64,000 nucleotides of DNA, taken from positions 62,001-126,000 of the forward strand of contig NZ_JAALJI010000019.1 in NCBI RefSeq assembly GCF_011064595.1, in the 5' to 3' direction. Numbering within the stretch: position 1 is the stretch's first letter; each line of letters starts with the position of its first letter. This document shows positions 5,103-10,310 of the stretch, piece by piece. The notes below the pieces were generated by a model. The model worked only from the letters and a program-made list of their open reading frames with translations. It was not told where the DNA came from and searched no databases. Source of the DNA: Paludisphaera soli (GTDB taxonomy: Bacteria > Planctomycetota > Planctomycetia > Isosphaerales > Isosphaeraceae). A program made the position numbers and the translations under genes.

Positions 5103-5759
5103 TCAAGGCCCGGCGTCCCCGAGCGCTCGCTCGATCGTTTCGAGGGCGAGGATCGCCGCCCGGCCGACCTCTCGCTCCGCGTCCGCAACTCGCTCGGCGT
5201 CCCACACGCATTCCCGAAGGGCCGGGATCGCCTCGCGGGCCGCCGCCCCCATCCGGCCCAGCGCCCCCGCCGCGGCGAGCCTGACGTCGGCGTCGTCGGA
5301 GCGGAGCGCCGCGACGAAGAGCGGGGCGAGCCGCTCCCCGGGGGCGGGGAGGCGCGCCTCGGCGACTTCGCCGGCGTAGGCGCTTAGCGCGAGGGGGAGG
5401 CCGTTTCCCCACAAGAGACGCAGGGTCGTCCTCTCGATGACGTCGATCCACGTCGCCAGCTTGCGGCGGTCGTCCGGCGTGATGAGGCCGTTGCGGGGGA
5501 GCATCCCGGACTCCTTCACGCCCCAGAGCCGGGCGGTCTGGCACATGTCCCATAAGGCGTGCACCAGGCTCCGATCGACGAGGGGACCGGATCCGAGGTG
5601 CTCCGCGACGGCCGCGATCGCCTCCAAGACCTCCTCGAAGTTCCGGTCGTCGAGCCCGCAGTAGGGACGCAGCGACCCGATCAGGCCGGTCGCCATTTTC
5701 GGCCCGTCTTCGGTCCCGGCGTGCATTCGGATGATAGACAGGGCATCGGTGAACGTCAT
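5103..5759 (-). CDS. HEAT-repeat-like protein of unknown function
   Basis: 218 residues, soluble. The C-terminal part carries clear HEAT/PBS-lyase-type repeats: LAPLFVAALRSDDADVRLAA, AAGALGRMGAAAREAIPALR and GRAAILALETIERALGD. The N-terminal half is helical with no motif I know. The start is the ATG behind AGAGGCGAAGG. It is upstream of, and on the same strand as, the exporter/acetyltransferase genes but 115 bases away, so linkage is uncertain. HEAT repeats usually serve as protein-binding scaffolds. I cannot name a function. Confidence 0.7.
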   Translation of the reverse strand: MTFTDALSIIRMHAGTEDGPKMATGLIGSLRPYCGLDDRNFEEVLEAIAAVAEHLGSGPLVDRSLVHALWDMCQTARLWGVKESGMLPRNGLITPDDRRKLATWIDVIERTTLRLLWGNGLPLALSAYAGEVAEARLPAPGERLAPLFVAALRSDDADVRLAAAGALGRMGAAAREAIPALRECVWDAERVADAEREVGRAAILALETIERALGDAGP

Positions 5760-6336
5760 GGCCTTCGCCTCTTGATAAATTCACCGTCGTGGACGATCCG
5801 CGTAGGCCGCGACGAGAGTCGTCGGGCCGAGCATGTAACAAACGTCCTTCCCCCTGGCGGGGCAAGGTTGCCCGCAAGGCCGGATGAGGGGGGGACGAGC
5901 CCGAAAACCCCTGGAGAATCAGCCGGGCCGGCCGTCGATGACGCCGGACGGACCCCTCACCCCGACGCCCGCCCCAAGGGCCGCGTGCCGGGGCCGCCGT
6001 GAAGAGGAATTGATATCCAAATCCCTTCCCCCCTGGCGCGGGAAGGGCCGCGCAGCGGTCGATGAGAGGGAGGACGGGCACGAAAGCCGTCGGCGATCCG
6101 GCGGGTCAACCCGGGCCGTCGGCCGTGCGGGCGGGGCTGCGAACTCCACAACTCCCCGCGCGCCTCACCCCCTCATCTGACCGCTTCGCGGTCTGTCTTC
6201 CCCCGCGAGGGGGGAAGTCCGTTGAGTCGCCGTCGCCTCTTGATGCGTCCGCCTTGATGGTCCCCCTCATCCGGCCTTCGGCCACCTTCCCCCACCGAGG
6301 GGGGGAACGGAAGAGGTCCGAATCCCGACGGCCGCT
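5760..6336. repeat. Intergenic nest of hairpin repeats
   Basis: No gene is supported here. The stretch holds four related hairpin units: 5844-5899 and 6023-6082 in one orientation (CCTTCCCCCCTGGCG...GATGAGGGGGG) and 6163-6220 and 6261-6310 in the opposite one (CCCCTCATCCGGCCTTCGGCC...). Each contains a G/C-rich stem around a short variable core. The inner pair bounds a ~200-bp element listed separately; the outer two look like solo termini of the same family. Such repeats usually gather between genes and can act as transcription or mRNA-stability signals. Confidence 0.75.
6023..6220. mobile_element. MITE-like element, copy 1 (about 200 bp)
   Basis: Two terminal inverted hairpin units (6023-6082 and 6163-6220) enclose a middle part whose reverse complement reads GCGGGGAGTTGTGGAGTTCG then CAGCCCCGCCCGCACGGCC. 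The same order, in the opposite orientation, recurs at 10111-10310. It has no coding capacity, long imperfect terminal inverted repeats and dispersed copies, all features of a MITE or REPIN-like element moved by a transposase elsewhere in the genome. No target-site duplication could be defined by eye. Confidence 0.65.
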
Positions 6337-7188
6337 TCAGGAGTTCGTCCCGCGACGTCGGCCGAGGGCCGCTGCGCCGGCGAGGCCCAGGCCCATCAGG
6401 GCCCACGAGGCGGGCTCGGGGACGGCGGCGCCGGGGGCGAAGGTGGTCAGGTTGTCGACGGCGGCGGTGAGCGGGGTGCGGGCCTCGCCGTCGGGGCCGA
6501 CGTCGGTGGACTCGAAGTTGAAGCGGAGGGTCCGGGCGTCCGAGCCCAGCGAGGTCAGGTCGACCGTCGTCCAGTCGTCGAGGGCGTACCAGTCGAGCGG
6601 GTCTGCGGCGGTGTAGTCGGCCAGGGTGACGAGGACCGAGCCGATCAGGGAGCCCGAGGCGTCCAGGCCCTCGATCGCCAGCCGGAAGAAGTCGCCGGCG
6701 CCGAAGGCCCGGGCCCAGCCGTCGCCCTGCGTGATCGCCTGGTAGGCGTAGAGGGTGTTGGTCACGTCGATCGAGTAGGCGGACTGGCCGTCGGCCAGGG
6801 CGATCTCCGCGTAGTTCGTGCGGTAGACGCTCTCGGGCGAGTAGGCGACGGCGTAGTTCGCCGAACCCCCCGCGCCGGAACCCGGGACCGCCAAGTACTG
6901 GTTCAGGAAGTCCAGGTCGGGCTGATTGCTCAGCGGCTGGGTCTGGTTCGAGAGGGCCCAGCCGTCCCAGTAGGAGCCGAAGGTGCCGTCGAAGTAATTG
7001 TTGAATGCGTTGCCGTCGATGTCGAAGCTGCCGGAGGGGCCGGCGTCGTTCACGGCGCTCTCGGGCGCGGCCAGGCCGGGGAGGCCCTCGAAGGTCGTCT
7101 TCTTATAGACGTCGGCCGCGAGGGCGGGTGCCGAGGTGAAGGCCAGCGATAGGGAGAGGGCGAGCGTCGAGGCGGCGGCGAGGCGCAT
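6337..7188 (-). CDS. DUF4465-type PEP-CTERM surface protein under B12 riboswitch
   Basis: 283 residues from the ATG at 7188, just after GGAGTC. An N-terminal signal peptide (ALSLSLAFTSAPALAA) is followed by one beta-rich domain with the DUF4465 pattern: NAFNNYFDGTFGSYWDGWALSN, then DFLNQYLAVPGSGAGGSANY, VTNTLYAYQAITQGDGWARAFG, LADYTAADPLDWYALDDWT and the closing AVDNLTTF. The C-terminus is a PEP-CTERM sorting signal: VPEPASWALMG, a hydrophobic helix, then GRRRG. The protein should be exported and processed by an exosortase at the cell surface. Its long leader carries a cobalamin riboswitch, so it is expected to be made when B12 is scarce, and may bind or capture cobamides. Domain, signal and sorting calls are firm; the ligand is inferred. 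Confidence 0.88.
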   Translation of the reverse strand: MRLAAASTLALSLSLAFTSAPALAADVYKKTTFEGLPGLAAPESAVNDAGPSGSFDIDGNAFNNYFDGTFGSYWDGWALSNQTQPLSNQPDLDFLNQYLAVPGSGAGGSANYAVAYSPESVYRTNYAEIALADGQSAYSIDVTNTLYAYQAITQGDGWARAFGAGDFFRLAIEGLDASGSLIGSVLVTLADYTAADPLDWYALDDWTTVDLTSLGSDARTLRFNFESTDVGPDGEARTPLTAAVDNLTTFAPGAAVPEPASWALMGLGLAGAAALGRRRGTNS

Positions 7189-7294
7189 GGGGAGACTCCG
7201 AGGAGAAGACGCGCGGGAGGTCGCCGCGCGGGGATGGCGGGCCGTCGTCACCGGTGGGCGGCCGGGGGCGGATCGCCCGCGTGCACGCCCGGCC

Positions 7295-7317
7295 GGATGC
7301 TCGCGGCCGAAGCATCC
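7295..7317 (-). promoter_or_regulatory. Hairpin after the cobalamin aptamer
   Basis: GGATGCT (7317-7311 on the minus strand) pairs with AGCATCC (7301-7295) around a nine-base loop, directly downstream of the riboswitch core. No U-run follows it, so it is not a classical terminator. It may be part of the expression platform or only a spacer hairpin; control is more likely at translation. Confidence 0.45.
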
Positions 7318-7329
7318 CAGGCAATGGGG

Positions 7330-7498
7330 TCTCGACGGGCAGGTCTTCTGGCTCACGGCCTGGCGACGAGCGGCCTTCCCACCTCGCGGCAGTGGCCCTG
7401 CGGCTCGCGCTTCCGGCCGTTCACAGCGGCGGCCCCGCGCCGGATTCGCACCGGCTTCCCTATTCTCCCCGCTCCGGGGCCGACCCGAGGCCGGCCCG
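7330..7498 (-). promoter_or_regulatory. Cobalamin (B12) riboswitch
   Basis: Read on the minus strand, the leader contains the hallmark B12-aptamer elements in order: AATAGGGAAGCCGGTGCGAA followed by TCCGGCGCGG, then CCGCCGCTGTGAA, the B12 box GCCACTGCCGCGAGGTGGGA ending GGC (7396-7373), and the closing GAGCCAGAAGACCTGCC. It lies about 140 bases upstream of the DUF4465 PEP-CTERM start and behind a promoter at 7523-7552. There is no other gene it could control on this strand. Adenosylcobalamin or a related cobamide should bind and switch expression off. The downstream region has no U-rich terminator, so control of ribosome access is more likely. Confidence 0.93.
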
Positions 7499-7522
7499 CC
7501 GGGGCTCCCGTCGGACGGGCCG

Positions 7523-7552
7523 ATTAGATCATCGGGGCGGCCTGGGCGTCAA
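7523..7552 (-). promoter_or_regulatory. Promoter of the B12-riboswitch transcript
   Basis: On the minus strand TTGACG (7552-7547), an 18-base spacer and TCTAAT (7528-7523) make a good sigma70-type promoter. Transcription would begin near 7516, about 20 bases before the first conserved riboswitch element, which agrees well with the aptamer position. Confidence 0.65.
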
Positions 7553-7593
7553 GCGCCGCATTAGGCGTGTCGTCGGCCGGGCGGCGATTGGAC

Positions 7594-7622
7594 TTGAGTC
7601 GTTTTTCGAGGTCTGCTAGGTT
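7594..7622 (+). promoter_or_regulatory. Candidate promoter for the secretin-domain gene
   Basis: TTGAGT (7594-7599), 17 bases, TAGGTT (7617-7622), pointing at the gene that starts at 7744. The same -10 form TAGGTT with the same spacing appears before tex (28333-28361). Back-to-back with the riboswitch promoter. By-eye match only. Confidence 0.35.
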
Positions 7623-7743
7623 TCCGGTCGATTGATCGCGCCGGGGGGCGTCGGGTCCATCGGCGTCGCGGCCGAAGCCCGGGCCGATCCCAGCCGTCGC
7701 GAGCCGACCGGATCCGCCCCAACCGGCAAGGAGGCCTCGTGGC

Positions 7744-9018
7744 ATGGATCGCCGCACCGCGCTGCTGCACCTGACGACGATGCTCGGCGCCCTCGCGCCG
7801 ACGAGGCTCCGGGCCCAGGAGGAGCGGCGTCGGACGCCGAAGTCCCGGCCTCGCGAAGACCTGGAATTCCGCCCCGTCGGCGCCCCGGCCGAGGCCGAGC
7901 CCCAGTCTGATGCCGGCGACCCCCTGGACGCCGCCGGGCAGCCTCCGGCCGGGTTCGTCAACGAGCCGGGCTTCCAGTGGCGGCGCTACCCGATCTCGCG
8001 CTACACCCAGGTCGCCGCCGAGCAGAAGTCGCCCCAGAAGGCGATCCTGGACTGGATCTTCCGACGCACCGGGACGGCCGACTGGCACGGCGAGAAGACC
8101 GCCGTGCTCTCGGCGAGCAAGACCGAGGTGCGGGCCTACAACAGCCCCGAGATCCTCGACCAGGTGGACGAGGTCGTCGAGCGGTTCACCGACTCGATCG
8201 AGGACGTCCTGTCGCTGCACATCCAGGTCGTCGCGGCGGTGGACACCCGCTGGCGGCATACGGTCTACTGGCGGCTTGAGCCGGTCGGCGGCGGTCCCCA
8301 GGGCCAGCAGATCTGGACCCTCCGCATGGATGACGCGGCGCTGGTCCTCTCCCAGATGCAGATGCAGCAGGGCTTCCGCCGCCTGGTCGACCAGCGGGTG
8401 GAGGTCGTCAACGGCCAGACCCTGACGATCCGCACGTTCGAGCCCCGGACCTATTCCGGCGGCATCCAGCGCGAGAGCGCGGCGGGGACCGGATTCCAGC
8501 CCAAGACCGACAAGCTGGAGGAATCCATCGTCCTGCGGCTCAGCCCCCTGCTGACCTACGACGGCGACGCCGTGGACGCGGCGGTCGACCTGACGGTCAA
8601 CTCGGTGCAGGCCTTCCAGCGGACCAAGATCATCGCCCCCCGGGAGGTCGGCTCCAGCGAGATGTCGATCGACGTGCCGGTCGCCTACCAGACCCGGCTC
8701 GATCAGACGATCAAGACCTGGCCGCTGGGGCAGACCCTGCTCCTGAGCGGCGGCATCCACCCCGGCGTCATCGACAAGAAGGGGGGATGGCTGGGCACGC
8801 CGCTGGGCGCCCCCAGCAGCACCGAGGTCCTGGTCTTCCTGGACGCCGAGGTCGCCAGCCGCGCCAAGGGCCGCGCCCGCGCCGTCGCCCCCGACGTGGC
8901 CCAGGCCCCGGACGACCGCGACGACGAGCCGGCGCCGGCTCCCGCGCCCCGGGCCGCCGCCCGCAAGCCGGGCGGCCGCGCAGTCCGCGGCCCCGACCTC
9001 GACTACGAGGAACCCTGA
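7744..9018 (+). CDS. Exported secretin-domain protein (type II/III secretin-like)
   Basis: 424 residues; start ATG behind AAGGAGG. The N-terminus (MDRRTALLHLTTMLGALAPT) looks like a signal peptide, with two arginines that might allow Tat export. Residues about 90-170 resemble the short N-type domains of secretins (EVRAYNSPEILDQVDEVVERF). The region from about 255 to 355 (KLEESIVLRLSPLLTYDGDA, then DVPVAYQTRLDQTIKTWPLG and QTLLLSGGIHPG) follows the C-terminal secretin fold of GspD/PilQ. The tail is Ala/Pro/Arg rich. No pilus or secretion ATPase lies nearby, so this looks like a lone secretin-domain protein, a common planctomycete type with no known role. Domain call moderately sure. Confidence 0.65.
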   Translation: MDRRTALLHLTTMLGALAPTRLRAQEERRRTPKSRPREDLEFRPVGAPAEAEPQSDAGDPLDAAGQPPAGFVNEPGFQWRRYPISRYTQVAAEQKSPQKAILDWIFRRTGTADWHGEKTAVLSASKTEVRAYNSPEILDQVDEVVERFTDSIEDVLSLHIQVVAAVDTRWRHTVYWRLEPVGGGPQGQQIWTLRMDDAALVLSQMQMQQGFRRLVDQRVEVVNGQTLTIRTFEPRTYSGGIQRESAAGTGFQPKTDKLEESIVLRLSPLLTYDGDAVDAAVDLTVNSVQAFQRTKIIAPREVGSSEMSIDVPVAYQTRLDQTIKTWPLGQTLLLSGGIHPGVIDKKGGWLGTPLGAPSSTEVLVFLDAEVASRAKGRARAVAPDVAQAPDDRDDEPAPAPAPRAAARKPGGRAVRGPDLDYEEP

Positions 9019-10110: not shown

Positions 10111-10310
10111 CGCCTTCCCCCCTGGCGGGGGAAGGCAGACCCCGCAGGGGTCGGATGAGGGGGGGACGCTCGCGGGGAGTTGCGGATTTCGTAGCCCCGC
10201 CCGCATGCCCCACGGCCTCGGAAGGCCCGCTGGAACTCCGAGAGTCGTCTCGCTCGCCCCCCCCTCATCCGGCCCTTCGGGCCACCTTCCCCCGCCAGGG
10301 GGGAAGGGCG
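10111..10310. mobile_element. MITE-like element, copy 2 (about 200 bp)
   Basis: Hairpin unit CCTTCCCCCCTGGCGGGGG...GGATGAGGGGGG (10111-10168) and its inverted partner CCCCCTCATCCGGCCCTTCG...GCCAGGGGGGAAGG (10255-10310) enclose a middle part containing GCGGGGAGTTGCGGATTTCG then TAGCCCCGCCCGCA. The middle part matches copy 1 (6023-6220) in reverse orientation, so two full copies of one element lie 4 kb apart. It fills nearly all the gap between the glycosyltransferase and methyltransferase genes, and any terminator or promoter for them would lie inside it. Confidence 0.7.

Follow-up and report, generated by a model that had tools for sequence, protein, structure and literature searches.

A cobalamin riboswitch precedes the gene of a probable exosortase-anchored, BtuJ-like cobamide catcher in Paludisphaera soli

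In the stretch of Paludisphaera soli DNA analysed here (64,000 nucleotides, hereafter the window), a cobalamin riboswitch precedes a minus-strand gene that quite probably encodes a BtuJ-like cobamide catcher that is anchored by exosortase and has a divergent pocket, working under riboswitch control in a system that lacks TonB. The original prediction was of a cobamide-capture surface protein, sorted by exosortase instead of being lipid-anchored and hitherto unrecognised; family, fold, regulon and gene content favor the first part, but "unrecognised" has to be dropped, because B12 binding by DUF4465 proteins is described in the available portions of PMC12751083 and PMC13398666. The assignment of DUF4465 as a B12-binding family is right and was already in print (2025-26), hence the core idea is not new; no publication joining riboswitch control with exosortase sorting was found by searching an open-access library. 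The features under discussion are the following:

6337..7188, minus strand: gene for the DUF4465 PEP-CTERM protein, 283 residues (open reading frame and profile matches)
7114..7188, minus strand: signal peptide, residues 1-25, without a lipobox cysteine (translation read by eye)
6448..6981, minus strand: DUF4465 domain, residues 70-247 (PF14717, 138 bits; AlphaFold2; Foldseek)
6748..6750, minus strand: conserved Tyr147 of the DE helix (placed at the position of BtuJ1 Tyr146 by motif)
6466..6480, minus strand: HI loop R237-T-P-L-T241, which in the family is N-T-P-x-Y (alignment)
6352..6426, minus strand: PEP-CTERM exosortase sorting signal, residues 255-279 (PF07589, TIGR02595)
7523..7552, minus strand: promoter-like TTGACG-18 nt-TCTAAT (read in the sequence)
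7335..7488, minus strand: cobalamin riboswitch aptamer RF00174 (Rfam, 73.7 bits)
7295..7318, minus strand: hairpin GGGATGCT-TCGGCCGCG-AGCATCC directly 3' of the aptamer (identical across five loci)
7196..7199, minus strand: Shine-Dalgarno sequence GGAG, 7 nt 5' of the ATG at 7188 (read in the sequence)

The protein matches PF14717 with 138 bits on residues 70-247 (cut-off 25), the profile check that had been proposed for it, as well as PF07589 with 29.9 bits on residues 255-279 (cut-off 20.7) and TIGR02595 with 23.1 bits (cut-off 16); with the signal peptide, these matches bear out the predicted signal-peptide DUF4465 PEP-CTERM protein. The window genome has three exosortase matches to PF09721. 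A GTG start inside the aptamer (frame 6337-7356) was passed over for the ATG at 7188, where inspection by eye shows a Shine-Dalgarno sequence and a signal peptide. A pseudogene is rejected on the intact frame and on the rough dN/dS of 0.32-0.45 among L049, L093 and L094. On the minus strand, the following plausible gene begins at 5759, a distance of 577 nt, and judged from this gap the DUF4465 gene is likely monocistronic; the gap speaks for the claim that the aptamer leads into one gene only, but no terminator-like site was found 3' of the gene (5700-6400). The divergent neighbor of the riboswitch (7744-9018, plus strand, 424 residues) matches no Pfam family at E 0.001. Intergenic GC-rich elements that carry CGGATGAGGGGG in both orientations lie at 5881-6273, downstream of the gene, and at 10152-10271, and this sequence has six matches in the window at no more than one mismatch versus 1.6 expected.

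The aptamer, claimed at 7330-7498, was found by the Rfam scan at 7335-7488 (minus strand) with 73.7 bits (gathering score 31.5 bits, E 2.7e-16, model positions 16-175 of 189), and it is the sole match above threshold to any Rfam family within the 64 kb window. Chance placement is ruled out by this score and by the family-wide association described below, against about 0.01 pairs expected. The claim that the aptamer has its own promoter at 7523-7552 holds insofar as TTGACG-18-TCTAAT is present and CTTGAC-18 nt-TCTAAT lies 5' of the aptamer in the window, at four other examined loci of the same paralogue and at L075, but the consensus promoter scanner reports 0 sites in 7100-7800, because its rule requires an A in second place of the -10 box, where this sequence has C. 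The hairpin that follows the aptamer, identical in the window and at four other loci of the same paralogue, has no U-run and may belong to the expression platform. The leader (7100-7800) yielded no terminator-like site, which speaks against a transcription-terminator platform; therefore the riboswitch perhaps acts on translation. Comparison of leader folding with shuffles gives no signal (z -0.74 and +1.45), and therefore no switch structure is claimed.

The linkage of DUF4465 to the riboswitch extends well beyond the window. The window's taxonomic family is represented by 45 genomes: 41 of them carry the 92 listed cobalamin riboswitches, and 29 carry the 39 DUF4465 matches. For 36 of these 39 matches, an aptamer is found on the same strand no more than 2.4 kb upstream, whereas uniform placement would yield about 0.01 pairs. 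The three misses are a fragment of 63 residues and two domains close to contig ends (172 and 710 nt away), and Rfam finds no aptamer on these sequence stretches. A sample of the phylum contains 13 DUF4465 loci in 11 of 392 genomes, the window's two included, with an aptamer at 12 of the 13; the remaining locus starts 127 nt from a contig end. The survey for DUF4465 genes behind RF00174 that had been suggested as a check thus supports the coupling in both samples. Among 79 named loci from many phyla (the top slice, best 80 of 564), a covariance model trained on 25 of the aptamers, with matches accepted at E <=0.1, gives 68 matches (weakest E 5e-4) that cover 66 loci, and all 68 lie upstream of the gene and on its strand. 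On 12 of the 79 loci, Rfam finds an aptamer at the same 10 as the covariance model. The 13 misses comprise nine loci with no more than 900 nt upstream, L169 with 2.2 kb, and three with the full 6 kb; at these last three and at L169, Rfam finds no aptamer either. Riboswitch coupling is the rule for DUF4465. The three loci with full upstream length are cyanobacterial, namely L127 (which we take to be Cylindrospermum), L157 (Amazonocrinis) and L172 (Okeania), and have no cobalamin riboswitch in 6 kb upstream, whereas the other loci with that length have one.

Modeling of residues 26-252 by AlphaFold2 with 70 homologues (pLDDT 93, pTM 0.90) indicates that the window protein is an augmented beta-jellyroll with a helix in the DE loop. 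The first nine ranks of a Foldseek search of the PDB are all DUF4465 chains, with TM-scores of 0.84 to 4jqr, 0.82 to 9qpm (BtuJ1 with cyanocobalamin) and 0.73 to 9hmu (with B12), and the next match has E 5e-4 and TM 0.29. The accession IPR013424 is taken here to be the PEP-CTERM entry. In the available part of PMC12751083, 88 of 824 sequences are listed with IPR013424; exosortase-type DUF4465 members are probably already in print. The accessible text of PMC13398666 reports B12 binding by eight divergent DUF4465 members, one of them from Mucisphaera calidilacus, a planctomycete, as well as the B12 complex structure 9HMU of a DUF4465 protein. BtuJ1 and BtuJ2 (BT_1491 and BT_1957) belong to riboswitch-controlled Bacteroides loci (PMC12751083, in part), which bears out the original remark that DUF4465-type proteins occur near B12 transport genes in Bacteroidetes (PMC12751083, PMC13398666). 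Tyr146, Asn241, Thr242 and Tyr245 of BtuJ1 are given among the conserved hydrogen-bonding residues, with inconsistent numbering of the Asn pair in the source, and the Tyr of the HI loop is stated to be universally present (available sections of PMC12751083).

Relative to Asn-Thr-Pro-x-Tyr, the HI loop of the window protein (RTPLT) keeps Thr and Pro and has Thr in place of Tyr and Arg in place of Asn; by its sequence, the protein is a member of the DUF4465 domain family and not a canonical BtuJ. The original prediction had taken in neither the absence of these corrin-binding residues, a hallmark of the family, nor the scattered regulon in a genome lacking TonB plug domains. Across 49 of the 50 survey domains (the window protein included, one fragment excluded), the HI-loop Tyr is present in 40 and replaced by Phe in 2; the seven that have another residue are the window protein, its orthologues L093 and L094, L083, and L086, L089 and L090 of one genus. 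Among the named sequences (best 80 of 564), which were fetched with canonical motifs and may under-sample HI-loop variants, 70 of the 79 give 65 Tyr and 5 Phe in this column, and their Asn and Thr never vary. Identity among the window protein, L093 and L094 is 68-80%. By a simple NG86 calculation, which is rough for GC-biased genomes, dN/dS is 0.32-0.45 among the Tyr-less L049, L093 and L094, and therefore the window protein is under constraint; comparisons with the more distant L091 and L096 give a similarly rough 0.64-0.93. L091 and L096, of the same genus and paralogue type, keep a Tyr (PTYAAIDN). The other DUF4465 protein of the window genome keeps the full motif (GMNTPAY), which leaves room for the window copy to be a weak or a specialised paralogue; the best named relative of this sister copy is from a Planctomycetales MAG, at 56% identity (best 80 of 564). 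We read the two copies as one standard and one retuned catcher, the rewired HI loop of the latter probably altering affinity or corrinoid preference.

The window genome encodes MetH (412 bits), and CbiC, the single corrin-synthesis marker searched, has no match in it; de novo corrin synthesis is rejected on this one marker, and judged by the same marker gene the bacterium seems unable to make vitamin B12. A profile search for the TonB plug domain, positive in the controls (E. coli, Caulobacter and Bacteroides), finds none in the window genome or in any of the 45 family genomes, and a TonB receptor is rejected on this plug-domain result. The result agrees with PMC3422733, in whose available text just four of the planctomycete genomes studied there have detectable TonB plus its receptors. 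The presence of MetH and the missing matches to CbiC and to the TonB plug domain suggest that cobamide is probably imported, and not through BtuB. The missing plug domain means that cobamides must cross the outer membrane by a non-canonical step. Two secretins are present in the window genome.

Five riboswitches of the window genome lead to two DUF4465 genes, a prepilin, a companion protein and an importer (FecCD permease, ABC ATPase and Peripla_BP_2 protein). Taking as target the first matching or coding-like gene downstream on the strand, 28 of 31 riboswitches in six genomes of the same genus lead to DUF4465 (12, one of them via a prepilin), a DUF1559 prepilin (5), the companion (6) or a Btu-type importer (5); the remaining three lead, one each, to DUF6580 followed by metE, to the large subunit of ribonucleotide reductase, and to a fatty-acid desaturase. 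At the survey loci, the DUF1559 prepilin is often found between aptamer and DUF4465, and the gene of the companion surface protein is often nearby. In 32 of 47 survey loci, the distance between prepilin and DUF4465 is at most 2.5 kb, and the density of prepilin genes is 39 in 263 kb near DUF4465 versus 4 in 393 kb further out, as detected by a profile of which seven of the eight sequences come from the survey loci themselves. Among the named loci (best 80 of 564, flanks up to about 6 kb), the prepilin is found at 43 of 79 and the companion at 58 of 79, the latter versus 12 of 47 survey loci. These units often share an operon in relatives, and the B12-capture module has come apart in the window's genus; the window protein is probably one piece of a scattered B12-capture kit. 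Several other riboswitch loci have arrangements of their own. At L055:8596-9130, two divergent cobalamin riboswitches stand back to back, facing a DUF1559 prepilin and DUF4465. A DUF6580 gene (L180:4320-5087, minus strand) lies between a cobalamin riboswitch and metE. The first gene of a riboswitch-led importer operon (L061:8644-10011, minus strand) has DUF1289 and DUF6925 domains and is kept in three of four other importer loci of the genus, with a partial match in the fourth. At L188:5001-6527 (minus strand), two riboswitches stand in a row, one before the fatty-acid desaturase (FA_desaturase_2, 416 bits) and one before the large subunit of ribonucleotide reductase.

The companion surface protein is taken to be BtuH-like, an assignment to which profile and model point. 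Pfam assigns it no family apart from C-terminal anchors, and a single-sequence search of the PDB with it gives no match. A profile of 49 homologues has one match in the PDB, residues 374-497 of 8BLW chain B (E 3.8e-4); BtuG1 bears a C-terminal BtuH domain (PMC10404256, in the part available), and BtuH is treated in the accessible part of PMC8941943. A model of the L121 homologue, which is not the window genome's own copy, has pLDDT 92.9 and aligns by VIA-align with 7biz (BtuH2) at Z 12.7 over 159 residues (rmsd 3.1) and with 8blw_B at Z 11.5, unrelated folds beginning at Z 9.7. Foldseek alone is less decisive, with 8blw_B first (E 1.1e-4), muskelin at 3.4e-4, and 7biz not among the 50 matches listed. 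By analogy of fold, the companion may itself bind B12. Reading frames of more than 1000 codons that fuse a BtuH-like domain with two to five DUF4465 domains occur at L107, L108, L111-L114, L119, L120, L131, L133, L138, L141, L147, L148, L154 and L164, mostly on contigs named Rhodopirellula or Rubripirellula.

The main rival to a cobamide catcher is that the window paralogue has lost cobamide binding and taken up another job, for instance with a partner protein, another tetrapyrrole or another metabolite, while inheriting its riboswitch. Both the Tyr and the Asn of the HI loop are gone from the window protein and its two orthologues, and there is a precedent in B. theta, where BtuK1 binds B12 and BtuK2 does not, both being upregulated without B12 (available part of PMC12751083). 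However, Tyr147 of the DE helix, the AB-loop motif WxGxxxSN and the predicted fold are all kept; many ligand contacts of BtuJ1 are main-chain or hydrophobic (same source, in part); and L083 and L086, L089 and L090 are Tyr-less as well, in groups drawn without a tree, and their genes keep the riboswitch. Loss of binding is thus considered unlikely. The riboswitch might instead regulate the gene by chance or for reasons outside B12 handling. One riboswitch of the same genus leads to a fatty-acid desaturase, which is unexpected and not an obvious B12 target, and therefore riboswitch control alone is no proof of a B12 role; but since the linkage, both in the family and across phyla, greatly exceeds chance, and since B12 binding by the domain family is in print, such a passive association is so improbable that it hardly weighs in the balance. 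A scavenger released from its anchor or borne on vesicles, and not fixed to the cell, would resemble the BtuJ proteins that act on extracellular vesicles in B. theta (PMC12751083, available text), but the window protein bears a sorting signal for exosortase and lacks a lipobox, which makes this version quite improbable, though less so than passive association.

The preferred reading, an anchored cobamide catcher, implies the following sequence of events. When intracellular cobalamin falls, the riboswitch would permit synthesis of the window protein; the signal peptide would export it and exosortase would anchor it outside, where it would bind cobamides and supply the riboswitch-controlled Btu-type ABC importer, the window gene being one of the five riboswitch-led units of the genome. 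The aptamer, the family, the predicted fold, the anchor signal, the regulon and the missing TonB plug and CbiC matches are results of the analysis, whereas binding, the direction and level of control, the location on the surface, the change of specificity and the route of hand-over are inferred. A more elaborate scheme, which is tentative and rather doubtful as a whole, is that in TonB-less planctomycetes exosortase-anchored BtuJ-like and BtuH-like catchers pass cobamides to a riboswitch-controlled DUF1559 pseudopilin, and a secretin-gated fibre carries them across the outer membrane to a BtuFCD-type importer, with the window protein as a second catcher adapted to different corrinoids. Shared regulation is the only ground for this pilus route, which is a hypothesis and casts the prepilin as a suspect for the outer-membrane step.

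With these results, a published biochemical family becomes a regulon, riboswitch control of DUF4465 being common well beyond Bacteroides and found here in a lineage that has MetH and no detectable TonB receptor. The passage of a 1.3-kDa cofactor through the outer membrane can now be put to the test, the suspects being a BtuH-like protein and one particular DUF1559 prepilin, and DUF1559, a prepilin family of unknown function, gains a first physiological handle. The Tyr-less proteins offer natural binding-site variants for asking which residues set cobamide affinity or preference.

In comparison with known systems, the window protein is like BtuJ1, BtuJ2 and D5EK51 (9HMU; DUF4465, IPR027828) in domain, predicted fold and export signal; its locus, like the Bacteroides BtuJ loci, has a cobalamin riboswitch; and the Tyr of the BtuJ1 DE helix is kept. 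It differs in having a PEP-CTERM/exosortase anchor where BtuJ has a lipid anchor, in the HI loop (RTPLT versus NTPxY in the family), and in belonging to a lineage with the TonB plug domain absent from 45 of 45 genomes. The canonical BtuB-TonB-BtuFCD system likewise has a FecCD permease, an ABC ATPase and a Peripla_BP_2 protein, which are here behind one riboswitch, but its TonB plug domain is unmatched in the window genome and family. BtuH2 (7BIZ) and the H-domain of BtuG1 (8BLW) are the closest solved relatives of the companion, at 17-18% identity, whereas the companion members examined end in PEP-CTERM or dockerin. The riboswitch-linked prepilin shares the N-terminal methylation motif and the DUF1559 and H-X9-DG domains with the DUF1559 (SBP_bac_10) prepilins of planctomycetes, and is set apart by its position behind cobalamin riboswitches.
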